Made by a program: the position numbers and the translations under genes. Shown piece by piece: positions 2,468 through 51,459 of a stretch of DNA of 64,000 nt. The stretch is from Sorghum bicolor (taxonomy: Eukaryota; Streptophyta; Magnoliopsida; Poales; Poaceae). The notes below the pieces were generated by a model, which made no database searches, was not told the origin of the DNA, and saw only the letters and a list, made by a program, of their open reading frames with translations. Each line of letters starts with the position of its first letter. Position 1 is the first letter of the stretch. The stretch covers positions 48,355,276-48,419,275 of the forward strand of contig NC_012876.2 of the NCBI RefSeq assembly GCF_000003195.3, written 5' to 3'.

Positions 2468-2725
2468 ATGGATAACTCAAATTCCACACCTATTATTGAG
2501 TTGTTTGCACCTTCGGAGACCAGCCATAGACCATGGGAGTCAACAAGTCCTTTCTTTGCCCCTAATTATGATCTGTGTCCGGAGTTGATTGCAATAGGTC
2601 AAAACCAACCCTTTTCTATAGCTGAGGTCCTACCTTTTAATCAAAATGATAATGAACTTTTAGCTACACCTAGGGAATCTGTTAATCTTTCTATAAATTC
2701 TGGTTTAAACCGAGCCCTACAAGAC
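2468..2725 (+). pseudogene. Element C 5' ORF, N-terminal part (split by element B)
   Basis: ATG at 2468 opens 86 codons that run without a stop into the left border of element B at 2726. The N-terminus begins MDNSNSTPIIELFAP and is polar, rich in Asn, Pro and Ser, with no signal peptide or membrane span. The frame resumes exactly after the second copy of the AAGAC duplication at 32358 and runs to a stop at 33047, about 315 codons in all with one in-frame TGA. It occupies the place where D has gag but shows no similarity to D gag by eye. I do not recognise the product. It could be an accessory ORF or a strongly diverged gag N-terminus. Confidence 0.6.
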
Positions 2726-8027: not shown

Positions 8028-8042
8028 ACCCTCCCCCCTTAA
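8028..8042 (-). other. Polypurine tract of element B
   Basis: On the minus strand this reads AAGGGGGGAGGGT directly before the LTR start TGTAACACC. It primes plus-strand DNA synthesis. The adjacent hairpin AATCTCG-TCC-CGAGATT (from about 8046) corresponds to the pol C-terminal codons in A, suggesting B descends from a coding element. Confidence 0.8.
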
Positions 8043-11821: not shown

Positions 11822-14800
11822 TGTAACAGAACCGCCCAAATTATAAGAGATTAAGCCTAATAGTGACCATTTGCATAGTCAAACCATCGAGCTTAAGCCC
11901 ATACAATCCCGGTAGTCCGTGAAATCTCGAAGGATTTCAAACCACAGATCGTACATACAACCAAGATCGTAATAAGTTTAGCGGTCACCATCCACAGTTA
12001 CATCCAGTTCGAAAATAACCATCAAATACATCGGAGTACTTAAAGTTATTACAAACCAAGTTCATAAGTAGCGGAAGCTTCATAGTTCGAAAACAACACA
12101 CACATGCTTAGTCTGATACAGTGCCATAGTTTTGGTCATTCCCACAAAAGCAAAAGAAGAGACGGAGTGACCATCGCCCTTGGTCTAGTCCTCACCCATA
12201 GCTAGGTACAGGCAGAGGATGCAATAACCAAAGTACATTTGACCATCTGCAAAACAACATGGGAATAGAACCCTGAGTACGAGAATGTACTCAGCTAGAC
12301 TTACCCGTCATAAACTCAAGAATAAAGACTCTTCAAGGATCATGAAGGCTATATAGTGGGGTAACTGACAACCTTTTTGCAAAACAGCAGGAATCTAGTA
12401 GCATATCCTACCGAAATCTTTCTTCTTTTAATTTGCTCAACTTGAAAGTATCATTACCTATGATCTAGGTTTGCACCTGCACTATGGCAATCAAAAAGTA
12501 ATAATATGATGGTACCTCATCATAGCATTCATGCAATTATTCAGCTTATGACTCAAGTGTTCCATAGTCCTTACTACGAGGACGAAGCTCATGTCAAGTG
12601 CTCACTGTCCAGGAGCGATGGTGATTCGAATCGATTTCTAACCAGCTGGCGAGGTATTCCCCACACAAACCACACTCACTGATCAAGTGAGCTACAGATC
12701 ACCGTATTACACTATCCAGGACCAAATTGCGGGTTCGGCAGGCACCGCCAGTACCCGAGGACCGTTTCGGCGACCGAGGTATCCAAGGTATACCAAGGTT
12801 GCGCGCCGCGCCCTCGTCGTTCTCCTCAACCATCACCAATACAGCGCATGGCGGCTCGACTCCCGGCCCGGATAGTGTTCAGGCTTCGCGGTCGGAACGA
12901 CTTATCCTTCCAGCTAAGTGTGGGGCATGCGTTCAACATGACAAGAGGGCCGTCAACGATCGATCCTTAATTGACACAGGCAGGGGCACTACAGTCAACC
13001 CACCATAAGACCCTGCCCGGTCTCAAATTTCCATTCCACACTTGGTTATTCTCTTCCCAAAGCAATCACTGCTTAATCAAGCCGGTATCCACCTATATCT
13101 CGCAGGTGACAGGAAATCACCCGACTTCTACCGGACTAAGCAGGCTAAGCATAGACTCCGTGCCTAACTAAATAGGACAAGATAGATAAACGAGTAGGGG
13201 TAACAAGGAGTACATATGCATTAACGGTATCAAGCAATTTCTATCACTTAAATGCAACATAGTAGAACAAACATAATATATTATTTAAGTTAGCAAGAAT
13301 AGGGAGACTTAGAATACTCCGGGGCTTGTCTTTCTCGAAAGTGCTCGGCTTATGATCTGGGCACTCCTGTAGCTCTTCTCCGGGTTCCAGTGCTCCCAGA
13401 GGTTCCTGCTCCTGGATCTCCTCCGGCTCCTCGGGTCCCACTTCGTTCTCCTGCGAGCCTGTATGGTGCATGTATGCTCATGAGTGGAGTGCGAAATGCC
13501 CGGGGTGCAATGCTCATGCGGGAGAATACCAGATGACTATGACATGGTGCATGGATGATTTATGTGGTCATTTACAAGGTAGTCAACATCATCCAAGAAC
13601 ATGCAATTGAATTAAACATCTATTGCATTCTCTTCTACCAATTGTACTCAAGTGTAACCAGCAACTCTCAAGATGCTTCAAGGATACACCAAACCCTTTT
13701 TATTCTACTTAATCTATATATATATATATAGCAATTTATAGGTTCTTTATTCATTTTTACACCCCTCAAATATAGCATGTATTTCTATTTATCAATAAAT
13801 TCCACAAAACTTACAGGAGACTACCAGTCAAGCATAAACCATAAATTTTTCATCATTTTTGGATACTTATTTTGAGCTACAAAAATCACCAGATTAATTA
13901 ATAAGGCAAGTACAATTATTCTACTGTGGTACAAGTGCCAAACAGCAGATTTTATATTTTTATAATTTGCTTAATATCATAAGAAACACCCACAAAAATT
14001 TCCAGATTAATTGCATGATCCAAATATTTATTAAAAATCATAAACCCCTGCCATGCAAGCTTTTAAATCACCACAAATTCATTCATATACCAAATAATGT
14101 GTAGCAGAATTTTCCCAGTGACTAAACATACATGCAGAGCTAGCAAAACAAGTTTCACATTTTTCTGGGTCATATTTTAATTACTATGCATTTTCCAAAT
14201 TCAGCAAAAACATGGATTAATTATTTCTGTCCAGAAAAAGTGTTCAAACATGACATGCAATTACATCAAACTGTAGATCTGAGAACAGAGAGCACACCAA
14301 AATTTATTTCACCAGATTTGGAGCTGTAGAACTCAAGATATGGATTTTACAAGTTTTAAATCAATTTCTGGAAAACCTTTATTTGAGAAAACCGACAGAA
14401 AACGCTAGATCCACACGGATCCACACTCGCAGAGGCGCTGACAGGTGGGACCCAGGGGCCGTGACCCCACGAGTCAGTCATGCAGAGCTCCGGCCAACTT
14501 CGGCCGGCCGGCTTTCGCCGACGGCGAGGTCTTCGGCCACGGGGTGGGCACCAACGTGTTCCCCGCAGCGAGGCGCATCCAGGGGTACCCTCGGACTGGG
14601 CGGAGGATGACCGGAACACCTCCAACGAGCGTGCATGGCGGCACGGCGGCGCTGCTCACCGTGGCCAGGCCGCTCCGGTGCGGTAGAGCGCGCACAAAAG
14701 CTACTCCGAGCATCCCCATCGATTTACGGACCTAACGCGCTAAAGAGCGAGCGAAACAAGGCAGGATATCGCAAGATCCATCGCGGCGGAGCTCTCCGGC

Positions 14801-15735
14801 GAGGTCGGAGCAACTCCGGCGAGCGATTCACGGCGCACGGCTGCTTCTCACCTCAGTAGAGTGTACGCAGGGGCTCACCGCGGCGATGGCGAGTGCGCTG
14901 GTGTCCTTGGCGTCGAGGTTGGAGCTCTGGTGCGAGCGGCGGCGAGCGGCGGGGCTTTCTCCGGCAATGGCGCGCGGCGGAACTGCTGCTGCTGCTGCTG
15001 CACGGACGGAGGAAGGAGGGAGATGCGCGGGCGACAGAATGAAGGGAGTGATCTGGGGGCGCGGGGCGGCGTCCCGACCAGGGGGGTGGAGGTGGTCGGC
15101 CGCGGCGCGCCCAACGCCGGCATACGGCCGCCACGTGGCCGTCACTGGATGAGGCGAGGCGGGCGCCGCGCGCGGGAGAGAGAGGAGGGGGAGGCAGGCG
15201 GAGCTGCTGGCTGGGCCGAAAGGGAGGCGGGTCGGCCCAGCAGCGCCTGTCCCCTTCTCTTTTTTTTTAAATTCTTTTCTCAATTTCTTTCTAAATTCAT
15301 TTGGACCATTTAAAAATCACTTTCACCCTTTTCTCCCAAAAGCAAAGTTGTTCCAAAACAAAAATCCTACAACTTTGTTTTAATAAGCAAGACCAAATTC
15401 CAAATAGAATTTGAGTTACAGATTAAAACTAGTTCTAGGTTTTCAAATAAATTCATTTTGGAGATTTTTGCATAAATTCCATTTCTCAAATTCTATGGCT
15501 CCAAAAATTGCACAAAAATACTCTTAATTCTTTTTGCACACAATTCAACCTAGTTTGAATATTTCACAATTTTAGAAGCAAGCATCATATTTTTAACATA
15601 TTTAAACCACATAGAATAAAGCACATAAAATCACATTTTGGATGGATGACATGCTCATGTGATGCTATGCTTGATGAGAATGCTTATGCATGTTTTGATA
15701 AGACTAAGTGCATGCTTAACACCTAGGGTGTTACA
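11822..15735 (-). repeat. 3' LTR of element A (3914 bp)
   Basis: Near-copy of 22378-26232. It holds a (TA)n run (about 13714-13731) and a GC-rich island (about 14380-15265) with a (CTG)6 run at 14983-15000; the other LTR has five CTG units. Compared with the right LTR it keeps about 58 bp near 12125-12180 that the right copy lost. The ORF set near 12687-13171 recurs in all three LTRs of this family only because the DNA is repeated. Confidence 0.95.
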
Positions 15736-16313
15736 GCCCTTCCCCCCTTAGGGAAATCTCGTCTCGAGATTTGGGTTACTAACCATTTCTTATGGAATTT
15801 TGGATAAACTATTTTTAGATAATCCTCGGTTTCCCAGGTGGCATCCCTATCGTCAAGATGACTCCACACCACCTTGTATGTTTTAACAACTCTGTTTCGG
15901 GTTACTCGTTCCTTGGTATCTACGATCCCCACTGGCTGCTCTTTATACTCCAAGTCTGCTTTTATTTTGATCCCTCGAGGTTCAATCCTCTGCTCAGGTA
16001 CTTTCAAACATTTTCGTAGATGTGATACATGGAAAACTGGGAAAATTGAACTCAACTCTTCCGGTAACTGAATCTTGTAGGCCACCGGGCCTTTTCTCTC
16101 CAATATCTGGTACGGTCCCACATATCTGGGTGCAAGCTTGCTTCGAACTCGGAAACGCTGGACTTTCTTCATTCGCGTAACCTTGAGGTAAACATAGTCA
16201 CCTACATTGAACTCAAGTGGCCTTCTTCTCTTATCAGCATAACTCTTTTGTTGTGATTGTGGCGCTTGCATATGCTGCTGTATGATTCGCACCTTTTTCT
16301 CAGCCTCGTTCAC
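15723..16313 (-). pseudogene. Integrase C-terminal domain with chromodomain (element A pol end)
   Basis: A 196-codon open stretch at the end of pol. Residues ~33-100 are the GPY/F region (VGPYQILERKGPVAYKIQLP, then FPVFHVSHLRKC) that ends gypsy integrases. Residues ~121-172 look like a chromodomain: TYKVVWSHLDDRDATWE matches the beta2-beta3 core, with Trp150 at the second aromatic-cage position. The third cage position appears to be Leu153 instead of an aromatic residue, as in group II chromodomains of plant chromoviruses. A chromodomain is thought to direct integration to marked heterochromatin. The frame reads through the polypurine tract and stops at TAG 15723-15725, inside the 3' LTR. It is separated from the integrase core by stops near 16330-16370, so this copy is broken. 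Confidence 0.85.
15736..15749 (-). other. Polypurine tract of element A
   Basis: On the minus strand it reads AAGGGGGGAAGGGC immediately before the LTR start. It lies inside the last codons of the pol frame, so the sequence is both coding and the plus-strand primer. Confidence 0.85.
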
Positions 16314-16370: not shown

Positions 16371-18383
16371 TTACCATCGACCATACAAAGCTTCGAACGG
16401 GGCCATCTTGATACTCTCTTGATAACTATTATTGTATGAGAACTCAGCCAAAGGTAACCATGATTCCCATGATCCCTTGGACGATAGTACACAGGCCCTC
16501 AGCATATCCTCTAACACTTGATTTAACCTTTCAGTTTGACCCGAGGTCTGGGGATGATACGCCGTGCTTCTTATCAGACTGGTCCCCAAACTCTTATGCA
16601 TTCGCTCCCAAAAGTGAGCGGTGAACTGTGGTCCTCTATCTGATATGATGGTCTTGGGAATACCATGCAACTTGACAATCTCAGCCATATATATATCAGG
16701 ATACTCGGGAGGTCTGTAGGTGTTCTTAACTGGAATGAAATGAGCCGACTTGGTCAATCGATCTATGATTACCCAAATCGAGTCATTCCCCTTTCGTGTT
16801 GGCGGTAAACCAGTGATAAAATCCATGCTGACCTCTTCCCATTTCCACTCTGGAACTGATAACGGTTGTAACAGACCAGTAGGTTTCATATGGATCGCCT
16901 TAACTCTGCAACACGTGTCACAACGGGCCACATATGCGGCTATTTCGTTCTTCATTTTGGTCCACCAAAAGTGGGGTCTTAGGTCTTGATACATTTTACT
17001 ACTGCCAGGATGAATAGAAAGCTTGGAGAGATGGGCTTCCTCCAGGATGCGATTCTTCAATTCTCGATTCTTTGGAACTACTAGACGGTGCTGAAACCAC
17101 AATACCCCTTTCTCATCAACCCTAAATTGAGTTTTTGGGTCATCTTTGATCTTCTCCTTGATGTGGAAAATACCCTTGTCTGTCTTCTGACCTTCAATGA
17201 CTTGACTCTCAAGTGAACAACTGAGCTGTATGTGACATAAGACTTCAGGATGCATGAGATTGAAACCATCTTCAAACAACGGTTGAACCACTTGATAGTG
17301 CGGTTTGCGACTCAAAGCGTCTGCTACCACATTAGCCTTGCCTAGATGATAGTGGACTTCCAGATCGTAATCCTTGATCAGTTCTAACCATCTTCGTTGC
17401 CTCATATTTAGCTCGGACTGAGTGAAAATGTATTTCAGACTTTTATGATCGGTGTAGATATGACACTTATTTCCTAGCAAATAGTGTCTCCAGATCTTCA
17501 AAGCGTGCACTACTGCTGCTAACTCGAGGTCGTGAGTTGGGTAGTTGACTTCGTGTTTTCTCAGCTGCCATGAGGCGTAGGCTATAACTCTGCCATCTTG
17601 CATTAGCACACATCCTAATCCACTTTTCGATGCGTCGCAAAACACATCAAAAGGCTTCTCGATATTGGGTTGCGCCAGAACGGGAGCGGTGGTTAGCAAC
17701 TTTCGCAAGGTGCGGATGGCTAGCTCACACCCTTCCGTCCAGACAAACTTATGATCCTTTTGTAGCAAACTAGTCATCGGCTTAGCAATCTTGGAGAAGT
17801 CGGGTATGAAACGACGATAATACCCGGCCAGACCAAGAAAACTCCGAACTTCCGAGACAGAAGTTGGTGCCTTCCAATCCATGACTTCCTGCACTTTTGA
17901 CGGATCCACAGCAATCCCTTCTTCAGATAGAATGTGCCCTAGGAAGGGAACTTTCTTCAACCAGAACTCACACTTGCTGAACTTTGCATATAACTGATGC
18001 TCTCGCAGTCGTGTTAGCACGACTCTCAGATGCTCGGCGTGATCTTGCTCATTTTCTGAGTAAACCAGGATATCATCGATAAACACCACAACAAACTTAT
18101 CTAACTCCGGCATAAAGACTGAATTCATCAGATACATGAAATATGCAGGAGCATTCGTCAACCCAAAGGACATGACCAGATACTCATACAACCCATATCT
18201 GGTGGAAAAAGCAGTCTTCGGGATATCTTGCGGGCGAATCTTGATTTGGTGATACCCGGATCTCAAATCTATCTTGGAAAATACTTTTGCCTTGGACAAC
18301 TGATCAAACAAAATATTGATCCTTGGTAACGGATACTTATTCTTGATTGTTACCGCATTGAGTGGACGATAGTTCACGCACAT
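16371..18383 (-). pseudogene. Reverse transcriptase, RNase H and integrase core (element A pol)
   Basis: 670 codons. RT carries the first catalytic Asp in SKIDLRSGY (res 39) and FIDDILVYS (res 101-109) with Asp103/Asp104. RNase H has DVFCDAS (Asp250), Glu287, Asp312 and Asp355. Integrase has a zinc domain with His451, His458, Cys488 and Cys491, and the DDE triad Asp521 (SMDFITGLP), Asp582 (SDRGPQF) and Glu618 (GQTERLNQ). All catalytic residues are present. The N-terminal RT motifs lie in another frame upstream: the T run at 18403-18408 has six bases where the sister copy E has five (43422-43426), so a 1-bp insertion made the shift. The frame ends at a stop after LYGRW, before the C-terminal domain. 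This is a recently disabled gene. Confidence 0.9.
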
Positions 18384-19749
18384 GCGCAGCGATTGATCCT
18401 TCTTTTTTCACAAACAACGCCGGACAACCCCATTCTGATGAGCTTGGCCGGATGAACCCTTTATCCAGCAACTCCTTTAGTTGATTCTTCAACTCAGCGA
18501 GTTCGTTTGGCGGCATCCGGTACGGCCTTCTAGATATCGGTGTTGTACCTGGTATCAACTCTATTGCGAACTCTACCTCCCTGTCTAGGGGAAGTCCTGG
18601 TAATTCCTCAGGAAAAACATCAGGGAACTCACAGACTACTGGGATCTGTGGTAATGGAACCACATGCGTAGCACAAGAGATGCTAGCAAACTCAAGGCGA
18701 CGGGGTAGAGGTACTTGAAAAGAGCTACTGCGCTGGGGTTCTCTGAGAGATAACATCCTCTTCCCAGTATCTATGACCGCATCCCATTCCCTCATCCAGT
18801 TCATGCCCATGATAACGTCCAAAACTAATCCAAGCATGACTACTAAATTCACTCGAAACACCCGGCCACTTATATCCAGGGTTGCCCCTCGGACCACTCT
18901 ATTTATTAACACATCTGCCCCTGCTGAGCTGATACGATAGCCATAACCCAGATCTGTAACTGGTTGATCATGCTTTTGTGCAAATGCTTGGCTCATGAAT
19001 GAATGCGATGATCCCGAATCAAACAAAACAACTACAAGATGTTGGTTGACAGGAAACATACCAGCTGTTACCGGTTCTCCTTCCGGAATCTCCTCGATTG
19101 AGGTATGGTGCACACGAGCTGGATAGGTTGGCTGTTGCCTCTTGGGGTAGGGACATTCCTTGGCAAAGTGTCCCATCTTGTGGCAGTTGTAGCACGAACC
19201 CTTGGTCACATTGTTGGTGGCAGGTGCCGCGGCTTGAATTGCCTTTGGCTTGGCAGGAGCTATCGCCACCTTGTACGGTTTCTGCTGCGTTGGATGCCTG
19301 GTGTTCCTTCTCTGCGGTGGTTGAAACCTAGCACCTGGGGCAGGAGGACGATACTGCGGTCGCCCTGCCACTGGTGCCCTGGACTGAGACGACCCGGCTT
19401 CAAAAGCCCTCTTCCTTGACTTGGATGCACTATAGTCACTGATGTAAGCATTGAAGGTAGCCCGGGTCCCTGTACCCATGGTCTTCAGCATCTTTGGGTT
19501 CAAGCCTCTCTGGAAACTAGCAATCTTCTTGGCCTCCGTGTTCACAAACTCAGGGGCGTAGCGAGCGAGATTGTTGAAAGCGTGTAGATACTCCTTCACA
19601 GACTTCGTTCCCTGAGACAGCCTCATGAACTCCCCAACCTTCATTTCCACCACACCCGGAGGAGGTAATTTCCTCGAAATGCAGTGGTGAAGCGGTTCCA
19701 GGTGATCGGGGTCTCCTCTGGGTAGGTGGTACGATGATGGGACCACCAA
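18337..19749 (-). pseudogene. Gag C-terminal part, protease and start of RT (element A)
   Basis: Open stretch of 470 codons. It starts inside gag (capsid-like helices, [17 protein letters not shown], res ~43-58). A single CCHC zinc knuckle follows, [14 protein letters not shown] (res 186-199), within a Pro/Gln/Arg-rich basic region that binds RNA. The aspartic protease has [10 protein letters not shown] (res 243-252; Asp244 catalytic). The chain then reaches the RT fingers ([18 protein letters not shown]) and runs out of frame at the T-run insertion near 18403. The apparent start is not a real start, because gag continues upstream in another frame (19764-20189). Confidence 0.88.
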
Positions 19750-19763
19750 ATCCCAGCTGGTCC

Positions 19764-20189
19764 CTACAACTGATGGGCCGCATACTCAGCCTTGAGTTCT
19801 TCAGTCATCCGAAGAAGACGGAACTTCTGCTCCATGGTGTTGATCCATTCATCCTCCTCGAGCGGTTCCAAAGTCTCCTTGAAGACTGGTGGTTTGGTAT
19901 CCATGAAGTCCTTGAAAGAGCTGTACTGGTTGACTTCACGGCCGCCCTGGTTATCCCCACGGCGGGTGTTGTCAGCTATGTTACGCAGGGCTTCTTCCAT
20001 ATTGCGCTGCATCTGCTCCATGTTGCGTTGGCTCCCCAGAAACTGTGCGAAAAACACGTCCGCAGTGTACGGAGGAGGCGGTGGTGGTGGCGGTGATGGT
20101 GCTCTTTCCTCGTTCTGTTGAGCCCCACCTCCGGATGTACCTGCTCCAAGACCGGGGTTGCTGTTACCCCCGCCACGTGTTTGCACCAT
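19764..20189 (-). pseudogene. Gag N-terminal part (element A)
   Basis: The likely gag start is ATG at 20189 (MVQTRGGG...), the same start as in copy E (45210). The upstream in-frame ATG is 6 nt earlier and not conserved. The N-terminus is Gly/Pro-rich with a polyproline run, then EEDEWINTMEQKFRLL, typical of retrotransposon gag capsid entry. The frame stops at 19764 and the capsid continues in other frames, so it is frameshifted. The ATG immediately follows ATATGCAG, a splice-acceptor-like sequence also seen in E (GCATTCAG), which suggests gag might be read from a spliced RNA. Confidence 0.8.
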
Positions 20190-20513
20190 CTGCATATGTC
20201 AATGATAAGCAATCGTTAGGAGTTGCCATCAACGGTAGACATGTGTAGAATCATGCCATACTGATTTTTACTGAGGAAATAAATTCGCACAATAAACAGA
20301 GGCACAACAATTCATCATCCACGCACAACATCACTAACAGATTACTTAACATTCAAACAACAAGGTTCGCATACATCTAAACTTGCCAGCATACATACAC
20401 TAGACTTTCAGCATCATCTCATAAAGTTTTATGTGGCCCAGATCCAAAAGTACAAGACATGCCATGCAACATCAACAACAAAAGAAGAAGGACTAGCTCT
20501 AGAGCCCTAGCAT
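20190..20513 (-). other. Spacer between H3-tail ORF and gag, with acceptor-like sequence
   Basis: About 320 bp without an ORF. The minus strand has a pyrimidine-rich stretch just after the H3-tail ORF stop and ends in ATATGCAG directly before the gag ATG. The spacer is conserved in E (45211-45540). Confidence 0.5.
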
Positions 20514-21557
20514 CTACTCGCTATGGTCACTGTCCATGCCGGAGCCCTCCTCGTCCTCATCTCCACTAGCAGCTGCCCCTATCTCTGGATCCTCATCCAT
20601 CTCGTCCTCGGAGTCTAGCTCAGCTGCTCCAGGCAGGTGGTGAGGGTGGAGCTGGTTATGCAGCTGGTGGATCTCCTCATGCAAGTTCTCATTGTACTCC
20701 TCAGCATTAGCTAGCTGTTGCTCAAGCTCTAGCTGTCGGGCCCTCAAAGTGTCCTCCTCGTGCCAGGCTTCATTCCTCTGACCAAGCACATGAACTAGCA
20801 TGCGCTCGCAGTTCCTGTGAGCAGTAGTCACCCTGTCTCGCTGCTCTCTCACTGCAAGTAGGTCCTGGCTCAGCTCACTGTTCTTCTGGACCGCTTGATC
20901 CCTCTCTTGGGTCATGCGGGCCAACACTGCCTGCAGCCTCTCAACCTCAGTGTCGAACTCACGCTGCAGTTGGCGCTTCTCATCCTGGACGGTGAGAAGA
21001 GACCCGGACAAGCGACCCAAACAACGCTCTAGGCCTCCGTAGGTCTTCATCAAAGCGTACATAGCACTCATAGCTGCGCTGTCACTGTGCTGGTCCTCAT
21101 CCGCACTCCTCTCTAGAGCGTTCACCTCGGACTGATCCCACACCGAAGTGTAGGGGTCACCCCGGGGAAACACCCCAGCGAAGGCGTGGGCCAGCTCCTG
21201 TGGAAACCTCTCCATGAGGTCCCTCAGAACTGTGAAAGCTGCCCTGCTGGCACCGTGGAAAGGCGTGGTACCTCGGGACTCGTACACCCAACCGCCCCAG
21301 GCGGGGTCACCTCCACTAGTAGGGACCACTGCCTCGATCCCCACCAGGGTCCCGTCACCAAGCTGCTCCTTGTCCCAATAGTAGCGAGGTTCCCTTCCTT
21401 CGGGATACCCCATCGAACTGAGCACCCTCCAAAGCAAAGTGGGCATCCCAAACTCCTCCAGGAACTTGCTCTTATGGCGCGAGCTCCTAGCTGCCAACGG
21501 ATGGCGAGGGGCCCGCCCACCAGTGGACTTGCGAGCGGTGAGCCTAGTGCGTGCCAT
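20514..21557 (-). CDS. Accessory protein with histone H3-tail-like N-terminus, coiled coil and acidic tail (element A)
   Basis: An intact 347-codon ORF upstream of gag. The start is ATG at 21557, directly after an acceptor-like TTTGCAGCAG. Residues 2-27 follow the H3 tail: 17 of 26 positions are identical, including the full TARKSTGG block around H3 Lys9 (Lys10 here); H3 Lys4 and Lys14 are Arg here, and Lys18 and Lys27 are His. Residues ~31-130 are globular (LLWRVLSSMGY, then GWVYESRG and SRAAFTVLRDLMERF), with an alpha-beta-alpha order reminiscent of a double-stranded RNA-binding domain (weak inference). Residues ~175-305 are a long Glu/Gln/Arg-rich coiled coil. Residues 313-347 are strongly acidic. 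There is no histone fold, so it is not a histone. The function is unknown; a role in engaging H3-tail readers or modifiers, with oligomerisation by the coiled coil, is a hypothesis. A second, decayed copy lies in E. Confidence 0.85.
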   Translation of the reverse strand: MARTRLTARKSTGGRAPRHPLAARSSRHKSKFLEEFGMPTLLWRVLSSMGYPEGREPRYYWDKEQLGDGTLVGIEAVVPTSGGDPAWGGWVYESRGTTPFHGASRAAFTVLRDLMERFPQELAHAFAGVFPRGDPYTSVWDQSEVNALERSADEDQHSDSAAMSAMYALMKTYGGLERCLGRLSGSLLTVQDEKRQLQREFDTEVERLQAVLARMTQERDQAVQKNSELSQDLLAVREQRDRVTTAHRNCERMLVHVLGQRNEAWHEEDTLRARQLELEQQLANAEEYNENLHEEIHQLHNQLHPHHLPGAAELDSEDEMDEDPEIGAAASGDEDEEGSGMDSDHSE

Positions 21558-22359
21558 CTGCTGCAAAGGGAATACCTTGGGTAAGATTGAGGATTACCTT
21601 TAATTATTTTATTTTGAATTGGGACAGATTTAATTAAGGGGGAAAGTAAGCAATGATATGAAATGAACGTGATGCATGCACGGACTTACGATCTCACAAA
21701 CTTAGGAACAAAAGTTAACACTAAGCGGTATACGCGGTGGCACACAACGCTCTCTCATAACGTAACTAGCGTTCTAAGCGAGAACGTGGTTAGTGTACCT
21801 GTAGAAAACTCATTTCAGCCCAACCACAGTATGCTCATGCAAAACAAGAAATTAAAACTATACACCCCACATACACAGACACCCCATCCATGCATATGAC
21901 GTGCTACTACCCACATCATCGCCCTAATGACGGCATCGCCTCTCAGGACGGAATCTCCCAACATGCGGTACTGTTCCTAAGCACACCAACCATGGGTGCA
22001 TGACATAGCACCTAACAACACTCCCCTAGACCGGCAGTGTATCCAATCATGCTCTCACAGCTCCCACTTACCGAGGCGTAGAGGTCAAATTGATCCATAC
22101 ATTACCACTCAAATGAATGGTACTCATACTATTGCACGCCGTATGAGCGACGAAATAGAAATATGATGCATTAACCCCCAAGTCAGTACTTAACTAGCCA
22201 CCTTAGAGTCCTTAACTGGGCATAAAGGATATGACCATGGCACACAAGATAGTTTTTCGAAAAACTTAGTTTGACACCTTGATTATCATTAATAAAAATC
22301 TTTTATTAAACCGGTTTAGATTTAGTTTAGAATGTACTTATGAACAGTAACTCGCTAAA
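21558..22359 (-). other. 5' leader of element A
   Basis: About 800 bp between primer site and first ORF, with only small incidental ORFs. It contains a conserved hairpin (22123-22147) and short blocks shared with B and E (for example gccacc...gtccttaa...gggcata near 22197-22225). It ends in a pyrimidine-rich CAG just before the H3-tail ORF. The position suits packaging or splicing signals. Confidence 0.6.
22123..22147 (-). ncRNA. Leader RNA hairpin (element A copy)
   Basis: The arms CTCATAC (22123-22129) and GTATGAG (22141-22147) enclose an 11-nt loop. Element B has TCCATAC and GTATGGA at the same place, twice. The arm changes compensate each other, which supports a selected RNA structure. 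Candidate packaging or dimerisation signal. Confidence 0.55.
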
Positions 22360-22375
22360 CCTTGCTCCGATGCCA
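22360..22375 (-). other. Primer binding site of element A
   Basis: The minus strand reads TGGCATCGGAGCAAGG, 2 nt after the LTR end. It resembles the initiator tRNA-Met complement (TGGTATCAGAGC) with changes; element B has TGGTATCGGAGC. Confidence 0.75.
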
Positions 22376-22377
22376 GC

Positions 22378-25300
22378 TGTAACAGAACCGCCCAAATTAT
22401 AAGAGATTAAGCCTAATAGTGACCATTTGCACAGTCAAACCATCAAGCTTAAGCCCATATAATCCCGATAGTCCATGAAATCTCGAAGGATTTCAAACCA
22501 CAGATCGTACATACAGCCAAGATCGTAATAAGTTTAGCGGTCACCATCCACAGTTACATCCAGTTCGAAAATAACCATCAAATACATCGGAGTGCTTAAA
22601 GTTATTACAAACCAAGTTCATAAGTAGTGGAAGCTTCATAGTTCGAAAACAACACACACATGCTTAGTCTGATACAGTGCCAGGTCTAGTCCTCACCCAT
22701 AGCTGGGTACAGGCAGAGGATGCAATAACCAAAGTACATTTGACCATCTGCAAAACAACATGGGAATAGAACCCTGAGTACAAGAATGTACTCAGCTAGA
22801 CTTAGCCGTCATAAACTCAAAAATAAAGACTCTTCAAGGATCATGAAGGCTATATAGTGGGGTAACTGACAACCTTTTTGCAAAACAGCAGGAATCTAGT
22901 AGCATATCCTACCGAAATCTTTCTTCTTTTAATTTGCTCAAGTTGAAAGTATCATTACCTATGATCTTGGTTTGCACCTGCACTATGGCAATCAAAAAGT
23001 AATAATATGATGGTACCTCATCATAGCATTCATGCAATTATTCAGCCTATGACTCAAGTGTTCCATAGTCCTTACTACGAGGACGAAGCTCATGTCAAGT
23101 GCTCACTGTCCAGGAGCGATGGCGATTCGAATCGATTTCTAACCAGCTGGCGAGGTATTCCCCACACCAACCACACTCACTGATCAAGTGAGCTACAGAT
23201 CACCGTATTACACTATCCAGGACCAAATTGCGGGTTCGGCAGGCACCGCCAGTACCCGAGGACCGTTCCGGCGACCGAGGTATCCAAGGTATACCAAGGT
23301 TGCGCGCCGCGCCCTCGTCGTTCTCCTCAACCATCACCAATACAGCGCATGGCGGCTCGACTCCCGGCCTGGATAGTGTTCAGGCTTCGTGGTCAGAACG
23401 ACTTATCCTTCCAGCTAAGTGTGGGGCATGCGTTCAACATGACAAGAGGGCCGTCAACGATCGGTCCTTAATTGACACAGGTAGGGGCACTACAGTCAAC
23501 CCACCATAAGACCCTGTCCGGTCTCAAATTTCCATTCCACACTTGGTTATTCTCTTCCCAAAGCAATCACTGCTTAATCAAGCCGGTATCCACCTATATC
23601 TCGCAGGTGACAGGAAATCACCCGACTTCTACCGGACTAAGCAGGCTAAGCATAGACTCGATGCCTATCTACATAGGACAAGGTAGATAAACGAGTAGGG
23701 GTAACAAGGAGTACATATGCATTAACGGTATCAAGCAATTCCTATCACTTAAATGCAACATAGTAGAACAAACATAATATATTATTTAAGTTAGCGAGAA
23801 TAGGGAGACTTAGAATGCTCCAGGGCTTGCCTTTCATGAAAGTGCTCGGCTTATGATCTGGGCACTCCTGCAGCTCTTCTTCGGGTTCCGGTGCTCCCAG
23901 AGGTTTCTGCTCCTGGATCTCCTCCGGCTCCTCGGGTCCCACTTCGTTCTCCTACGAGCCTGTATGGTGCATGTATGCTCATGAGTGGAGTGCGAAATGC
24001 CCGGGGTGCAATGCTCATGCGGGAGAATACCATATGACTATGACATGGTGCATGGATGATTTATGTGGTCATTTACAAGGTAGTCAACATCATCCAAGAA
24101 CATGCAATTGAATTAAACATCTATTGCATTCCCTTCTACCAATTGTACTCAAGTGCAACCAGCAACTCTCAAGATGCTTCAAGGATACACCAAACCCTTT
24201 TTATTCTACTTAATCTATATATATATATATAGCAATTTATAGTTTCTTTATTCATTTTTAGACCCCTCAAATATAGCATGTATTTCTGTTTATCAATAAA
24301 TTCCACAAAAATTACAGGAGACTACCAGTCAAGCATAAACTCTACCATAAATTTTTCATAATTTTTGGATACATATTTTGATCTACAAAAATTACTAGAT
24401 TAATTAATAAGGCAAGTACAATTATTCTACTATGGTGTAAGTGTCAAACAGCAGATTTCATATTTTTATAATTTGCTTAATATCATAAGAAACACCCACA
24501 AAAATTTCCAGATTAATTGCATGATCCAAATATTTATTAAAAATCATAAACCCCTGCCATGCAAGCTTTTAAATCACCACAAATTCATTCATATACCAAA
24601 TAATGTGTAGCAGAATTTTCCTAGTGACTAAACATACATGCAGAGCTAGCAAAACAAGTTTCACATTTTTCTGGGTCATATTTTAATTACTATGCATTTT
24701 CCAAATTCAGCAAAAACATGGATTAATTATTTCTGTCCAGAAAAAGTGTTCAAACATGACATGCAATTACATCAAACTGTAGATCTGAGAACAGAGAGCA
24801 CACCAAAATTTATTTCATCACATTTGGAGCTGTAGAACTCACCAGATTTGGAGCTGTTTTAAATTAATTTCTGGAAACCTTTATTTGAGAAAACCGACAT
24901 AAAACGCTAGATCCACCCGGATCCACACTCGCAGAGGCGCTGACAGGTGGGACCCAGGGGCCGTGACCCCACGAGTCAGTCATGCAGAGCTCCGGCCAAC
25001 TTCGGCCGGCCGGCTTTCGCCGACGGCGAGGTCTCCGGCCACGGAGTGGGCACCAGCGTGTTCCCCGCAGCGAGGCGCATCTAGGGGTACCCTCTGACTG
25101 GCCGGAGGATGACCGGAACACCTCCAAAGAGCGTGCATGGCGGCACGGCGGCGCTGCTCGCCGTGGCCAGGCCGCTCCGGTGCGGTAGAGCGCGCACAAA
25201 AGCTACTCCGAGCTTCCCCATCGATTTACGGACCTAACGCGCTAAAGAGCGAGCGAAACAAGGCAGGATATCGCAAGATCCGTCGCGGCGGAGCTCTCCG

Positions 25301-26232
25301 GCGAGGTCGGAGCAACTCCGGCGAGCGATTCACGGTGCACGGCTGCTTCTCACCTCAGTAGAGCGTACGCAGGGGCTTACCGCGGCGATGGCGAGTGCGC
25401 TGGTGTCCTTGGCGTCGAGGTTGGAGCTCTGGTGCGACCGGCGGCGAGCGGCGGGGCTTTCTCCGGCAATGGCGCGGCGGAACTGCTGCTGCTGCTGCGC
25501 GGACGGAGGAAGGAGGGAGAGGCGCGGGCGACAGAATGGAGGGAGTGATCTGGGGGCGCGGGGCGGCGTCCCGACCAGGGGGGTGGAGGTGGTCGGCCGC
25601 GGCGCGCCCAACGCCGGCGTACGGCCGCCACTTGGCCGTCGCTGGATGGGGCGAGGCGGGCGCCGCGCGCGGGAGAGAGAGGAGGGGGAGGCAGGCCGAG
25701 CTGCTGGCTGGGCCGAAAGGGAGGCGGGTCAGCCCAGCAGCGCCTGTCCCCTTCTCTTTTTTTTTAAATTCTTTTCTCAATTTCTTTCTAAATTCATTTG
25801 GACCATTTAAAAATCACTTTCTCCCTTTTCTCCCAAAAGCAAAGTTGTTCCAAAACAAAAACCCTACAACTTTGTTTTAATAAGCAAGACCAAATTCCAA
25901 ATAGAATTTGAGTTACAGATTAAAACTAGTTCTAGGTTTTCAAATAAATTCATTTTGGAGATTTTTGCATAAATTCCATTTCTCAAATTCTATGGCTCCA
26001 AAAATTGCACAAAAATACTCTTAATTCTTTTTGCACACAATTCAACCTAGTTTGAATATTTCACAATTTTAGAAGCAAGCATCATATTTTTAACATATTT
26101 AAACCACATAGAATAAAGCACATAAAATCACATTTTGGATGGATGACATGCTCATGTGATGCTATGCTTGATGAGAATGCTTATGCATGTTTTGATAAGA
26201 CTAAGTGCATGCTTAACACCTAGGGTGTTACA
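22378..26232 (-). repeat. 5' LTR of element A (3855 bp)
   Basis: Partner of 11822-15735. It is about 60 bp shorter mainly through one deletion near 22681. The GC-rich island (about 24890-25765) lies in the half that begins the LTR in the transcribed direction. The hairpin aacacc-tag-ggtgtt marks the outer end. TGCAT follows at 26233-26237. Confidence 0.95.
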
Positions 26233-27600
26233 TGCATAACTCTAGTAGCTACTAACATTATTGCCTAGACAACAATAATGTAGTTTGGTGACAATGAGGG
26301 ATTATCAGAAGAAACACAAATTGTTTAAGTGAGGTTAAAGCATTTGCAAACGCTTGCAGGAGCAACGTATTCGCCTTTTGGCTAAACAAGCGAACACCTA
26401 CAAGTTCAAGCATATAGCCTCAACTATTTCTATTATAGGTAGGCTATACTTTTACTTAGTTAATTAACATTAGAGGATTCATTGGAAAACATTCACATAC
26501 ATGTTCACTGACAAGCTTTAGTTTTCAAAGGATTGTAGTTTCTGCTACTACTAACTTAGCATTCCTATGGAAGCAAACATTCAAGGCTAGATACCTCACA
26601 CACTACCTTCAAGCAAAACTATTCAAGTAGTATGGAACATGGCAATGTTTGTCTAGCTTACACAAGGAAGATAGTAACATCATGTCAATCACAAGTTATT
26701 TATCATTAGAAAAAAGATGAGAGAAGAATAGTTATGGATAATGCAACAATCATGAGGATGCATGCTTCGTCTTATTCGTTCTCACAAAATTGCCAGCCTA
26801 AGATGGCAATCACGTTCTATGTCGGTGGCATAACACATACTCTCTTGACATATAGCTAGTCGTCAACTACGTTCAATCTATGCATTCATGGTTAGGGTAC
26901 CTGTAGAAGAATTTCATTTCAGCCCAACCCATCAATAGTATAAGTACAGAAATGAAAGTCTGGTCTCTAGGTTGAAAGCTAAATACTCCAATATATATTC
27001 CCGAATATATATTGCAGCATACTACCCATGTGAAGCACGCCCATGTATACACAGAGACATGTATACACGGTCATAACAACTAACCCACAATTAAGTACCT
27101 TTATATAGACATGTGTGTAACATGTAAATATTCCAGTAACCACATCTAACTCTCCCCTAGACCGACGGTTGGACGGTCATGCTTTCACAACTCACACTTA
27201 CCATAGCGTAGAGGCATATAGATCCATACATTACCACTCAAGCAAGTGGCATCCATACAATTTCACGCCGTATGGACGACGAAAGGAAAATATTGCTTAC
27301 CGTGACGTAGAGGTATATGATCCATTCATTACCACTTAAGTAAGTGGCATCCATACTATTGCACGCCGTATGGACGACGAAAGTAAAAGTTGCGATAAAG
27401 TAAACCCCCCATAGTTAGTATCAGTTTACATAAAGCCACCTAGTAGTCCTTAATTGGGCATAATTTGAGGTTGTCGCTAGCATAGTTTTTGTAAATTAGT
27501 TTTGACAAGTTTTGCCTGTAGCTAAAGTTTTAGTCAAAATAGGATTTTTAAAATCAAAACATTGTTTTTAAAACAGTGTACCTGATAGTATTATACTTAA
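26233..27600 (-). other. Internal region of element B, 5' part (leader), non-coding
   Basis: It contains no ORF of note. It begins with the second TGCAT duplication copy from element A. Near the primer site it shares short blocks with the A and E leaders and holds a duplicated hairpin module (27188-27390). Confidence 0.65.
27188..27390 (-). repeat. Tandemly duplicated leader hairpin module in element B
   Basis: Two diverged ~100-bp units sit head to tail (about 27190-27290 and 27295-27390). Each holds the block attaccact...agtggcatccatac...cacgccgtatggacgacgaaa. The hairpin arms are TCCATAC 27252-27258 with GTATGGA 27270-27276, and TCCATAC 27350-27356 with GTATGGA 27368-27374. Elements A and E have a single unit. 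Confidence 0.75.
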
Positions 27601-27616: not shown

Positions 27617-27618
27617 GC

Positions 27619-32352: not shown

Positions 32353-32357
32353 AAGAC

Positions 32358-45540: not shown

Positions 45541-46590
45541 CCTAGCATCTACTCGCTATGGTCGCTGTCCATGCCGGATCCTTCCTCGTCCTCATCTCCA
45601 CTAGCGGCTGCCTCCATCTCTGGATCCTCATCCATCTCATCCTCAGAGTCTAACTCAGCAGCTCTAGGTAGGTGGTGAGGGTGGAGCTGGTTATGCAGCT
45701 GGTGGATCTTCTCATGCAGGTTCTCATTGTACTCCTCAGCATTAGCTAGTTGCTGCTCAAGCTCCAGCTGTCGGGCCTTCAGGGTGTCCTCCTCGTGCTA
45801 GGCTTCATTCCTCTGACCAAGCACATGAACTAGCATGCGCTCGCAGTTCCTGTGAGCTATGGTCACCCTGTCCCTCTGCTCTCTCACTGCTAGCAGGTCC
45901 TGACTCAGCACACTGTTCTGCTGGACTGCCTGGTCCCTCTCTAGTCACACAGGCCAACTCTCCCTGCAGCCTCTCAACCTCACTATCAAACTCACTCTGT
46001 AGCTGGCGCTTCTCATCCTGAACTATCAGTAGAGACCCAGACAAGCGTCCCAAACAGCGCTCTATACCCTCATAGGTCTTCATCATGGCAAACGTATCAC
46101 TCATTGCTGTACTGTCACTCTGCTGATCCTCATCCGCACTCCTCTCTAGAGCATTCACCTCGGACTGATCCGACACCGAAGTGTAGGGGTCACCCCAGGG
46201 AAACTCCCCAGCGAAGGCGTGGGCCAGCTCTTGTGGAAACCTCTCCATGATGTCCCTCAGAACTGCAAAAGCAGCCCTGCTGGCACCCTGGAAAGGTTTG
46301 CTGCCTCGGGACTCGTATACCCAGCCACCCCAGGCGGGGTTACCACCACTGGTAGGAATCACTGCCTCAATCCCCACTAGGGTCCCGTCACCAAGCTGCT
46401 CTCGGTTCCAATAGTAGTGAGGTTCCCTTCCTTCAGGAAACCCCATCGAACTGCGCACCCTCCACAGCAAGGTAGACATCCCAAACTCTCCTAGGAACTT
46501 GCTCTTGTGACACGAGCTCCTAGGTGCTAACTGATGGCGAGGGACCCGCCCACTAGTCGACTTGCGAGCGGTGAGCCTAGTGCATGCCAT
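45541..46590 (-). pseudogene. Histone H3-tail-like accessory ORF, decayed copy (element E)
   Basis: Same gene as 20514-21557. It starts at ATG 46590 after TATTTTCAGCAG. The N-terminus MACTRLTARKSTSG keeps the TARKST block around the Lys9 equivalent and keeps Gln at the H3 Q19 position (PRHQLA), where A has Pro; 14 of 26 tail positions match H3. The globular region (LLWRVRSSMGF, RAAFAVLRDIMERF) and coiled-coil start are clear. A 1-nt loss near 45955 shifts the frame, and a TAG (Trp codon in A) lies near 45797. The acidic tail is still readable to a stop near 45541. Conservation of the tail in two diverged copies suggests past selection. Confidence 0.78.
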
Positions 46591-47412: not shown

Positions 47413-50400
47413 TGTAATAGAACCACCCAAATTATAAGAGATTAAGCCTAATAGCGACCATTTACACAGTCACTTGCCAAGCTTAAGCCCATATAATCAC
47501 GGTAGTGTGTGAAATCTCGAAGGATTTCAAACCACAATCGTACATACAACCAAGATCGTAATAAGTCCAGCGATCACCATCCCCAGTTACATTCAGTTCA
47601 CAACATTAAGAGATTACATCGGAGTTCAAATATAGTTATTACAAACCAAGTTCAATAGTAGAAGAAGCATCATAGTTTTAAAATAACACAAACACATAGT
47701 CTGATACAGTGCCATAGTTTAATCATTCCCACAACAGCAAAAGAGGAGGTAGAGTGACCATCGCCCTTGGTTAGTCATCACCCATTGCTGGGTACAAGCA
47801 GTGAATGCAATACCCATAGTACATCTGACCATCTGCAAAACAACATGGGAATGGAACCCTGAGTACGAGAAGGTACTCAGCTAGACTTACCCGTCATAAA
47901 CCAAAATAAAAGACTCTTCAAGGATTATGAAGGCTGTATAGTGGGGTAGTTGAAACCTTTTTGCGTAAGAGCATTAACCATCTAGAAGTATATCCTAACA
48001 TCCTCCTTTCTTTTATTTAGCTCAAGTTAGGTATTATTACCTATCATCTAGATTTGCACCTGCACTATTACAAACAATTGTTGTGGCATGATAATACCTT
48101 ATCATAACATTCACAGTTCGTCACTTATCATAACCCAAGTGTTTCATAGTCCTTACTACGAGGACAAGGCTCATGTCAAGTGCTCACTATCCAGGAGTGA
48201 TGGCGATTCAAATCGATTTCTGACCAGCTGGCGAGTTTATTCCCCACACAAACTACACTCACTGATCAAGTGAGCTACAGGTCACCGTGTTACATTATCC
48301 AGAAGCAAATCGCGGGTTCGACAGGCACCGCCCGTACCCGAGGACCGTTCCGGCGACCGTGGTATCCAAGGTATACCAAGGTTGCGCGCCGCGCCCTCGT
48401 CGTTCTCCTCAACCAGCACCAATACAGCGCGTACATCAGGCCGATTCCGGGCCCGAATAGTGTTCAGGCTTTGCGGTCGGAATGACTTATCCTTCCAGCT
48501 AAGTGTGGGGCATGCGTTCAACATGACAAGAGGGCTGTCAACGATCGGTCTTTAATCGACACAGGCAGGAGCACTACGGTCAACACCACCATAAGAACCT
48601 GCCCGGTCTCAAATTCATTCCCACACTTGGTTACTTTTCACCAAAGCAGTGACAGCTAATATTTAGGTATCCACCTATATCTCGTAGGTGACAGGAAATC
48701 ACCCGACTTCTACCGTACTAAGCAAGCTAAGCATAGACTCCGAGCCTATCTACATAGGACAAGGTAGATAAACAGGTGGTGAAATCAAGGAGTAAATGTG
48801 CATCAACGGTGTCAAGCAACTCCTATCACTTAAATGCAGCATAGTAAAACAATTATGATATAACAAATTAAGTTAGCGAGAATAGGGAGACTTAGGTTGC
48901 TCCGGGGCTTGCCTCTCACGAAGGTGCTAGGCCTATGGTTTGGGCACTCCTGCAGATCTCCTTCCGGCTCTGGTCCTTCCGGAAGCTCCTGCTCGTGTGT
49001 CTCCTCCTGCTCCTCAGGTCCCACCTCATTTTCCTACAAGCCTATATGATGCATATGTGCTCATGAGTGGAGTGCAAGATGCCTGCGGTGTAATGCTTAT
49101 GCAGGTTAATACAAGATGATCATGACATGGTGCATAGATGAAACAGGAAACTATTTCTACAAGGTAGTCAACATCATCCAAGAACATGTAACCAAGTCAA
49201 GATCTATTGCATTCTCTTCTACAAATTATTATTAACCAGCAAGCTATCATGGTGCTTCAAAGATACACCAAACACCATTTATTCTATTCATCTCATGCAT
49301 AACAAGGTTTTATTTATTTAATTATTATTAGGCATACAACAGTAGCATATACTTCTGATCTTCGATAAATTCCACAAAAATTACAGTAGGTCACTAGTTA
49401 TTTATAAAGTTTACCACCAATTTTTCATAATATTTGGACAGGTAACATGGTCCACACAAAAATCACAGTTAAATCTACATAATTAAGTGTAAATACCCTA
49501 CTGGTGATAAAGTGTCAAACAATAGATTTCATATTTTTATAAATTACTTACTATCGTAAGAAATGTCCACAAAAACTTTCAAATTAATTGCATGATCCAA
49601 ATATTTATTAAAAATCATAAACCATTGCCATGCAAGCATTTAAATCATCATAAATTAACTCCTACAGCAAATATTGTGTTACATATTTTTCCCATAGAAT
49701 AAACATCCATGCAAAGCTAACAAAACAAGAATTACATTTTTCTGAGTTATATTCTATTTGCCATGCATTTTCTAAATATCAGCAAAATATGGAATAATTA
49801 TATTTACATAGAAAAGTTGTACAAACATGACATGCAAAGACACCAGGTTGTAGATCTTGAATTATGGAACACATCAAACTTTATTTCATCATTTTTGGAG
49901 CTGTGGATATCAAGATATGGATTAAATACCATTTAAACAAATTTTTGGAAAACATTTATAAAACAAAACAGATTCAAAACGCTAAGTGCACCCGATCTCC
50001 ATCCCCCAGAGGCGCTGACAGGCGGGAGCCGTGGGTCAGCCGACCCCACCCGTTAGACACTCAACTTATCCGCGGCCGTGGACCGGCTGGGATCTCACCG
50101 CCGGTGAGGTTTCCGGCGACCCCAAGAGCACCTACAGCTTCCCGAGCGTGAGACGAACCTAGCCGTACCCTTTGCAGCATCTACCATGCACCGGAGATAG
50201 CTCGCCGTCGAGCATGGCGGATGCGGTGGCGCTGCTCACCGCGGCCCGGACATCTCGGTGCGGTAGAGCGCGAACCAAGGACGGGGAAAGGAGTGCGAAG
50301 TCGAGGCGGAGCTAATGCGCTTGAAAACATGGGCATTGGTGGAGAGGAGGGGGAGAACCACGTGAGCCGAGAGGTCGCCGGAGCTCTGGCTCACTCCGGC

Positions 50401-51354
50401 GAGCTCTAACGGATGAGCTAAGCTTACCGAGGGTGGTTGAGCGTGCGTGCGGGGTGCGGGAAGGCGAGGCGGAGTCGCTGGTGGCCGAGGATTCGAAGGA
50501 GGAGGCCAGGGCTGCCAGAGAGAGGAGCTCCGAGCGTCGGCAGCAATGGCGAGCGGTGGCGCGGCCGCTGCGGCTGTCCGGGCGAGCGAGAGAGGGGGAG
50601 TGGACGAGCGCGAATGGCAGAGGAGGGAGAAGCGAGCGCGACCGGGGCCTCCTGGTGGCCGACCAGGGCGTGTCCACCTCGGCGCATGGGCGCCACGTGG
50701 CGGCAGAGCTCTGCCGGCTCGCCACGGCGGCACGGCGCGGCCAGCTGTCACGTGTGGACACGAGCGCGGGCGCGGGGATTGGGAAGGCGCGCTCATGGGC
50801 TGGGCCGGCTTCGGCCAGCGGGCCAGAAGCGAGGCCGCGGCCTGCTAGGGCCCCCCCTTTCCCTTTTCCATTTTTTTGAATTTCTTTTCACAAATATTTT
50901 CCAAGCTCATTTTGACACATTGAAAATCTTTTTTAGGTTTGGCCCCTAAAACAAAAGTTGACCAAAATAAATAGCTCTACAACTTTGCTTTAAGCTGCAA
51001 CTCCAAATTCCAATTAGAATTTGAAATGCAATTCAAAACTAGTTCTAGGTTTTTAAATAAATTCATTTTGGGGATTTTTGTATAAAATCCATTTCTCAAA
51101 TTCTAGAGCTCCAAAAATTCCACAAAAAAATTCTTAATTCTTCTAAAACATAGTTCAACTTACTTTGGTCATCACAAGCAAATTTAAAGCAAGCATGTTA
51201 ATTTATTATATTAAATTCATTTAAATCAAGCACATAAAATCACAATTTAAAAGCTACTATGCTTATGTGATGCTATGCTCATGCTATGCTTGATGAGAAT
51301 GCTTATGAGTGAGTTTGTGAGACTAAGTGCATGCTTAACACCTAGGGTGTTATA
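47413..51354 (-). repeat. 5' LTR of element E (3942 bp)
   Basis: Clearly homologous to the A LTRs over its full length but diverged throughout. The outer end reads GGTGTTATA instead of GGTGTTACA. The GC-rich island is at about 49985-50870. The LTR is followed at once by a pol fragment of the same family (51355-51459). Confidence 0.9.
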
Positions 51355-51459
51355 GCCTTCTTCTCATGTCAGCATAGCTTTTCTGACGTGATTGTGCGGC
51401 TTTCATGTATTGTTGTATGATTTGTACCTTTTTCTCACCGTCGTTGACGAAGTCAATAC
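51355..51459 (-). mobile_element. Scrap of Tekay-type integrase gene
   Basis: About 105 bp matching 16225-16325 of A (minus-strand coding for the stretch around NEAEKKVRIIQQHM), so it is pol sequence outside the E LTR. Either E inserted into another copy of its own family, or recombination produced an internal-LTR-internal arrangement. It ends abruptly at a truncated Athila-like LTR. Confidence 0.75.

Follow-up and report, generated by a model that had tools for sequence, protein, structure and literature searches.

Why would a plant retrotransposon encode a protein that begins like histone H3? The question is raised by a 64,000-nucleotide stretch of Sorghum bicolor contig NC_012876.2 (the window), in which a 14.4 kb Ty3/gypsy element on the minus strand, here called element A, carries an open reading frame (ORF), ORF0, upstream of gag and separate from it. 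The start of ORF0 reads MARTRLTARKSTGGRAPRHPLAARSSR and resembles the H3 tail around Lys9. Selection maintains this tail across ORF0 families that have diverged from one another. It was likely captured as an exon of an H3.3 gene, and it may serve the element as a mimic of H3.

The H3-like tail of ORF0

The first-pass annotation of this DNA, made from its letters alone, had described an ORF of 347 residues. This ORF is present, and its strand, which had been left unstated, is minus; the plus strand has seven stops there. The parts of ORF0 are as follows.

20514..21557, minus strand: ORF0, 347 amino acids, with H3-like tail, double-stranded RNA-binding domain (dsRBD)-like domain, coiled coil and acidic tail
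21486..21557, minus strand: H3-like tail, Met plus H3 positions 1–23, MARTRLTARKSTGGRAPRHPLAAR; Lys9 is residue 10
21198..21449, minus strand: dsRBD-like predicted fold, residues 37–120, alpha-beta-beta-beta-alpha
20649..21077, minus strand: one long helix (coiled coil), residues 161–303, from structure prediction
20517..20639, minus strand: acidic C-terminal tail, residues 307–347, last residues DSDHSE

Identity to H3 at 17 of the 26 positions after Met, counted by eye against H3 rows, agrees with the earlier count. Arg also occupies the positions of H3 Lys4 and Lys14 in element A, leaving Lys9 as the sole Lys within residues 1–27. A phmmer search with the whole of ORF0 retrieves H3 tails from the PDB (E 5e-4), and the alignment begins at residue 1. 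In single-protein searches a short relative, P0033, reaches the H3 tails at E 3e-4, and another relative, P0012, at E 0.003, where two IpaB rows matching the coil of P0012 rank higher. With a profile built from seven ORF0 tails, H3 comes up at E 2.1e-10, and the best 60 of the 129 matches at E ≤ 1e-3 are all H3 or the H3 variant Cse4. The likeness starts at residue 1 or 2 in each of these searches, with the three single proteins as with the profile. When residues 2–38 of each of three proteins were shuffled, none of 200,000 shuffles reached the observed H3 identity. Given these E-values and shuffles, the likeness to H3 is not due to chance.

As the first-pass annotation had stated, there is no histone fold: Pfam gives no histone family up to E 1, and the predicted model consists of a dsRBD-like part and a long helix, whose predicted local distance difference test (pLDDT) score is above 90 from about residue 181. 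The coiled coil and the acidic tail that it had named are present; its globular domain is better described as a predicted dsRBD-like fold, for which the nearest plant proteins are DRB7.2 and DCL4. Identity to the solved structures of DRB7.2, DRB4 and DCL4 (8igd, 9k9p, 9kby) is only 14–15%. No dsRBD sequence match has been found in Pfam or among the 17 rows of a PDB profile search, and a Foldseek comparison with viral models gives no match at E ≤ 0.001. The KKxAK motif, which contacts dsRNA at helix 2 of dsRBDs, is absent from the ORF0 domain, in which helix 2 starts with HGASRAAF; on this ground the domain would be expected to bind protein and not RNA.

Conservation of the tail and selection on ORF0

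Database relatives of ORF0 have been collected by a protein search (43 proteins) and by a profile search in which the 7995 candidates sharing most words were scored (286 proteins, 120 of them listed). Among 149 proteins, the window's ORF0 included, 48 reach the ORF0 start (47 from the database and the window's own), and all 48 have the tail. The remaining 101 begin at ORF0 position 21 or later, none reaching position 20, and nine of them begin exactly at MPTLLW, residue 38; these starts may reflect gene callers favouring a GGAGGAG-like site ahead of MPTLLW. The 48 tails were picked by a pattern asking for at least seven H3 identities. An alignment score used instead of the pattern gives the same number at a score of at least 30 (lowest 36), and the rest of the best 70 rows score 22 or less. 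A tail-region protein search found two proteins among six candidates, and no relative has been seen in scans of viral contigs (2) or genome contigs (1). The tail is present and non-random in related elements, a point on which the first-pass annotation had made its reading depend.

In many of the relatives (P0028–P0043 among them), the H3 tail is joined directly to the coiled coil without a dsRBD-like domain. Across 46 such short forms, K4, G13 and L20 are kept in all 46, and K9 and S10 in 45 each. K14 is replaced by Arg in all 46, and position 18 is never Lys. Uncharged positions are also well kept (T6 in 42, A7 in 43, P16 in 45, A21 in 45), and Arg positions less so (R2 in 30, R8 in 35, R17 in 23). 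Much of the variation consists of Arg changed to Cys, His or Gln, which would be expected from the decay of methylated CpG in dead copies. Arg at the Lys4 position characterises some families and not the gene as such: K4 is kept in the short forms and in a divergent sorghum family, family C. Nearly all ORF0s retain Lys9 and Ser10. Neither Lys14 nor Lys18 survives in any ORF0 family read, and the Lys18 position holds His or Gly.

Among the ORF0 families of the sorghum genome is family C (P0025). It has 39% protein identity to the window's ORF0 and five scored genome copies. Its tail reads MARTKQTARKSTGG, identical to H3 over residues 1–13, and five of five copies read MARTKQTARKSTGGRAPRG. These copies were first found by a pattern demanding most of the tail; a P0025 query without the tail returns exactly the same five at 92–99%, and no other of the 127 places scored, out of 2954 candidates, exceeds 42%. 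Compared with an H3.3-type gene, L100, codons 1–14 of family C differ by eight synonymous and no nonsynonymous changes (p 2e-5), and compared with a second, L103, by six and none. Between family C copies, codons 1–24 show seven synonymous and no nonsynonymous differences (L101 and L104) or five and none (L101 and L105). Over codons 1–24 there are nine nonsynonymous steps between family C and H3.3, all beyond codon 14. Sequence of gag, protease and reverse transcriptase (RT), recognized by eye, lies downstream of a family C ORF0 (L110). A fourth family, D (L102), is decayed, and its tail reads MARTKLTARKSARGRAPRHQLAPG.

Families A (that of element A) and C share 19 of 24 residues in the tail (79%), 44 of 84 in the dsRBD-like part (52%) and 40 of 138 in the coil (29%). 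The same order of tail, dsRBD-like part and coil is found for A and C each compared with P0012. The close pair of element A and element B, a decayed relative in the window, breaks this order: the tail (19 of 24) falls below the linker, the dsRBD-like part and residues 121–160 (83–90%).

Family A itself is very abundant. A genome search with ORF0 scored 117 places of 3274 first-look candidates; the matches of the 117 span almost all of the query, and a stop is listed for 18 of them. A first set of 48 family A copies comes from the top of the protein-level ranking against the query, a choice that favours silent differences; it holds several near-identical copies, and its shared variants are therefore not independent. 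For a second set of 30 copies, the coil alone served for ranking, without the tail. Seven of these were already in the first set (L057, L059, L066, L067, L069, L070 and L071), and one, L054, is without the 5' part. For shared variants, the ratio of nonsynonymous to synonymous polymorphism (pN/pS) is 0.05–0.11 across all five ORF0 segments in the first set and 0.10–0.15 in the second. Shared variants in codons 1–37 comprise one nonsynonymous and seven synonymous in the first set, and two and seven in the second (p 0.0017). Single-copy variants of the second set in codons 1–26 comprise four nonsynonymous and seven synonymous (p 0.017). Lys9 is found in 48 of 48 first-set copies, in all 29 second-set copies whose 5' end can be read, and likewise in 20 of 20 low-ranked places. 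Stops in the query's frame occur in 9 of the 78 loci of both sets, seven of the 78 being repeats of the same place.

When codons 1–26 of this family are taken by themselves, the signal is weaker: shared variants of the second set are two nonsynonymous and four synonymous there (p 0.06). One result speaks against selection on the tail, since element A and the decayed element B differ in these codons by five nonsynonymous and two synonymous changes, with a ratio of nonsynonymous to synonymous divergence (dN/dS) of 0.94. Purifying selection, on which the first-pass annotation had staked its reading, is found for the whole of ORF0 and for the family C tail; at codon level, family A supports it over codons 1–37 and gives a weaker signal over codons 1–26. 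Taken across the families, the sequence comparisons indicate that selection keeps the H3-like tail in divergent ORF0s.

Some candidates for further families were discarded. The twenty low-ranked places, considered as new subfamilies, all belong to family A, one of them (L079) deleted, and the matches of P0012 at 51–53% are known family A ORF0 places. No short-form family was seen in the sorghum genome, where 149 of 150 P0033 rows match from residue 22 or later, that is, in the coil. L079, a family A copy with a deletion, gives the only row that starts at residue 1. In this copy (G000:C4:27027637-27029300) the tail is in frame, the middle is deleted and the coil is that of family A, so that it resembles the short form of other species. 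Lys stands at the H3 Lys4 position in two family A-type copies, L108 (G000:C9:19758988) and G000:C7:37772350, the latter known only from a pattern hit that falls on an ORF0 place. The change from Lys4 to Arg would therefore be recent, polymorphic or reverted in family A.

Origin of the tail and layout of the element

The boundaries of the likeness point to its source. In the H3 gene L100, the sequence reads TTAATGCAG, then ATG continuing to GCAACCAAG, then GTAACATT: a coding exon of 72 bases, Met plus residues 1–23, between an acceptor and a donor (edges TGCAG/ATG and AAG/GTAACA, with slashes at the exon boundaries). In two other H3 genes, L103 and L109, GT likewise follows the codon for K23, and the ATG is not directly at an acceptor. 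All three continue with AARKSAPTTGG past the intron and have T31 and Y41; L100 and L109 also have H87 and L90. We take these four residues to be marks of plant H3.3, and the H3.3 label of the three genes rests on them. The likeness of ORF0 to H3 ends at residue 23, the intron position in the three H3.3-type genes. At the other end, CAG/ATG stands at the ORF0 start in all four families read (A, B, C and D). ORF0 tails share 46–53 of 72 bases with two H3.3-type exons, and a 17-base stretch, GCTCGCAAGTCCACTGG, is unchanged among L103, three family C copies and family A. As the likeness starts at the acceptor-like CAG/ATG and stops at the H3.3 intron position, the simplest reading of these sequences is that an H3.3 exon was likely captured with its splice acceptor.

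A tail pattern search of the genome returned 20 places, and none in a reversed control. Eleven of the 20 have been read: five are family C, one family D, one family A, three H3 genes and one an H3-like fragment. The fragment, L099 (G000:C1:55813019), is an H3-like exon piece, MARTKCTARKSTGGKAPRKQL, running into other sequence; it is possibly an H3.3 pseudogene or another capture.

Three splice-like signals lie upstream of ORF0 and gag.

22066..22071, minus strand: GTAAGT, a candidate 5' splice donor within the leader
21558..21567, minus strand: splice-acceptor-like TTTGCAGCAG directly before the ORF0 ATG
20187..20192, minus strand: a second CAG resembling an acceptor, immediately ahead of the gag ATG (CAG followed by ATGGTGCAAAC)

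These signals were counted in 98 loci, with seven places counted twice. At the ORF0 acceptor-like site, the last 12 bases with the ATG show no change in 90 of 95 loci in which they were located, and GCAG/AT at the gag start is kept in 75 of 78 located. GGTAAGT is found in 37 of 38 loci where located, most of the 98 being too short to reach the donor. The leader has 23 ATGs, 16 between the donor and ORF0 and seven before the donor. One strong donor with two acceptor-like CAG/ATG sites, in the minus-strand stretches 21558–22377 and 20187–20513, suggests retrovirus-like alternative splicing, in which the leader donor would be joined to either acceptor and ORF0 or gag would be made from one transcript.

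The remaining features of element A and of element B are listed below. LTR stands for long terminal repeat and TSD for target site duplication.

18337..19749, minus strand: gag (part), zinc knuckle and protease of element A (Pfam scan)
16371..18383, minus strand: RT, RNase H and integrase of element A (Pfam scan)
15723..16313, minus strand: integrase C-terminus with a weak Chromo match (Pfam scan)
11822..15735, minus strand: 3' LTR of element A, 3914 bp; TSD TGCAT at 11817–11821
22378..26232, minus strand: 5' LTR of element A, 3855 bp; TSD TGCAT at 26233–26237
About 42.8–51.4 kb: second, decayed element B, with a homologous ORF0
45805..46590, minus strand: decayed ORF0 of element B, whose frame breaks near codon 215 and whose tail reads MACTRLTARKSTSGRVPRHQLAPR
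47413..51357, minus strand: 5' LTR region of element B, aligned parts about 77–80% like the 5' LTR of element A

The Chromo match at the integrase C-terminus, on which an assignment to the Tekay/Del type of chromoviruses would depend, has an E-value of 9e-5 and 22.7 bits, below the cut-off of 25.1. Read on the minus strand, the LTRs of element A start with TGTAACACCC and end with GGTTCTGTTACA. The Kimura two-parameter distance between them is 0.0244, which at a rate of 1.3e-8 per site per year corresponds to about 0.9 million years. Elsewhere in the window, a long repeat pair (2725–8028 and 27618–32353, about 96% alike) probably belongs to a further LTR element that flanks element A or is nested near it.

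By layout, the ORF0 described here is the published ORF0 of Retrosat2/RIRE3-type grass elements. According to the available text of Gao et al. 2012 (PMC3485330), Retrosat2, RIRE3 and RIRE8 of rice and Sorsat2 of sorghum are Ty3/gypsy elements with an extra ORF upstream of gag-pol, as in element A. Their LTRs are about 3 kb or more, as are the 3914 and 3855 bp LTRs of element A, and their LTR ends, TGTCACACCC, are near but not identical to the TGTAACACCC of element A; the likeness is one of layout. Metabolic enzymes are proposed there for ORF0 from 3D models, its function is left open, and the word "histone" does not occur in the main text. The first-pass annotation knew of no characterisation of this gene; by its layout ORF0 is a published one, and its function is unsettled in the available text of that paper.

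Possible function of ORF0

Host removal of Met would give ORF0 a free ART..TARKS terminus, and the coiled coil may hold several copies of the tail together. Host H3K9 methyltransferases and readers of H3K9me2 (CMT3/ZMET2, ADCP1) would then treat the tail as H3. The bound mimic would occupy the CMT3/ZMET2 reader without switching the enzyme on, because Lys18, needed for activation, is His or Gly in ORF0. In H3, K14 is a lysine that can be acetylated, and it is Arg in ORF0. By keeping the bound residues (R2, K9, S10 and a basic residue at 4) and losing the activating K18 along with K14, ORF0 would look as a decoy would. The effect would be less H3K9me2-CHG silencing of the element. The available text of PMC9256654 reports that the BAH domain of CMT3/ZMET2 binds H3 residues 1–10, that K18 readout is required for activation and that H3(1–17)K9me2 gives no appreciable stimulation. 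In the corresponding text of PMC6318295, ADCP1 contacts R2, K4 and K9me2, and S10ph weakens its binding. These proteins are the natural partners of an H3(1–23)K9me2-like peptide and are proposed as targets, not as relatives of ORF0. The mimicry suggested by the first-pass annotation stands and has gained a likely origin in an H3.3 exon. Its functional half, that the H3K9 machinery may bind or modify the tail, is plausible; that ORF0 is a captured-exon mimic acting as an H3K9 decoy falls, in our estimate, somewhat short of an even chance.

A wider scheme adds the dsRBD-like domain, which may touch the DRB/DCL small-RNA machinery in parallel. Grass elements would have captured the first coding H3.3 exon with its acceptor and made of it a multivalent H3K9 decoy devoid of K14 and K18, methylated and read but not activating CMT3, with the dsRBD-like module aimed at DRB/DCL. 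Both silencing arms would thus be opposed, which may help explain the high copy number. We regard the scheme in this full form as speculative and unlikely to hold throughout.

Foreign elements with an H3-tail motif are known from viruses, including influenza NS1 (ARSK), adenovirus VII, HDV and SARS-CoV-2 ORF8 (ARKS), as summarized in the available text of PMC10208167; the ORF8 case is disputed in that of PMC10833455. These viral mimics are motifs of a few residues, whereas ORF0 matches H3 at 15–20 of 24 positions (Met included), at a true N-terminus and likely by exon capture. No word starting with "plant" or "transpos" occurs in the main text of PMC10208167. In the literature searched, which covers few subscription papers and not the original RIRE3 report, no paper was found on an H3-like ORF0 or on a retrotransposon gene with a selected, H3.3-exon-derived tail. 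ORF0 (PMC3485330) and viral histone mimicry, taken separately, are already known.

Instead of a decoy, the tail could be a targeting tether: once methylated at K9, it would be recognised by readers of H3K9me or by the integrase chromodomain of the element itself, and would carry the pre-integration complex into heterochromatin, where new copies are least harmful. The chromodomain-like integrase end of element A fits such a role, and a coiled coil with a tail would suit a multivalent tether. In its favour too, the available text of PMC3350952 states that the interacting factor of plant-element group II chromodomains was not found. Against it, the same text has these chromodomains without the aromatic cage residue Y24 and usually Y48 as well. 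A tether alone does not account for the loss of K14 and K18 from all families read, and we judge this alternative to be rather unlikely.

The captured exon might otherwise be a basic tail only, used for nuclear import or for RNA or DNA binding in the virus-like particle, with the H3 likeness a matter of ancestry. The tail is Arg-rich, the change of K14 to Arg preserves charge, and ORF0 also has a dsRBD-like domain. However, among the 46 short forms the conservation of uncharged positions equals or exceeds that of Arg positions (many Arg having been lost by CpG decay), and family C keeps residues 1–13 without change, which a basic tail would not need. This makes the explanation doubtful, and slightly more so than the tether. 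An origin of the tail within the element itself, with selection shaping it towards H3 and no exon captured, is improbable. The base identity with the two H3.3-type exons is, as a distance alone, compatible with such convergence, but the likeness spans the whole 23-residue exon and ends at its edge, CAG/ATG is in place in families A, B, C and D, and GCTCGCAAGTCCACTGG is common to L103, three family C copies and family A. A relic or unexpressed ORF without function is very hard to credit: the stops in 18 of 117 scored rows and 9 of 78 loci would suit it, but shared variants are poor in nonsynonymous changes in all five segments, in the 48 copies as in the 30 coil-ranked ones.

VANC is a transposon-encoded anti-silencing factor. 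If ORF0 is an H3K9 decoy, it would have the same proposed job, that of an element opposing its own silencing; the likeness is by role, and no sequence relation is claimed. It would be, to our knowledge, the first case of a transposable element using histone mimicry against its silencing mark. With its selected H3 tail, likely derived from an exon, ORF0, whose function is left open in the available text of PMC3485330, becomes open to a concrete and cheap test by peptide binding and methylation. If the decoy reading is true, the ORF0 families would also hold natural H3-tail variants (K4R, K14R, K18H/G) tuned by evolution, from which the tail residues that H3K9 readers need could be learned.
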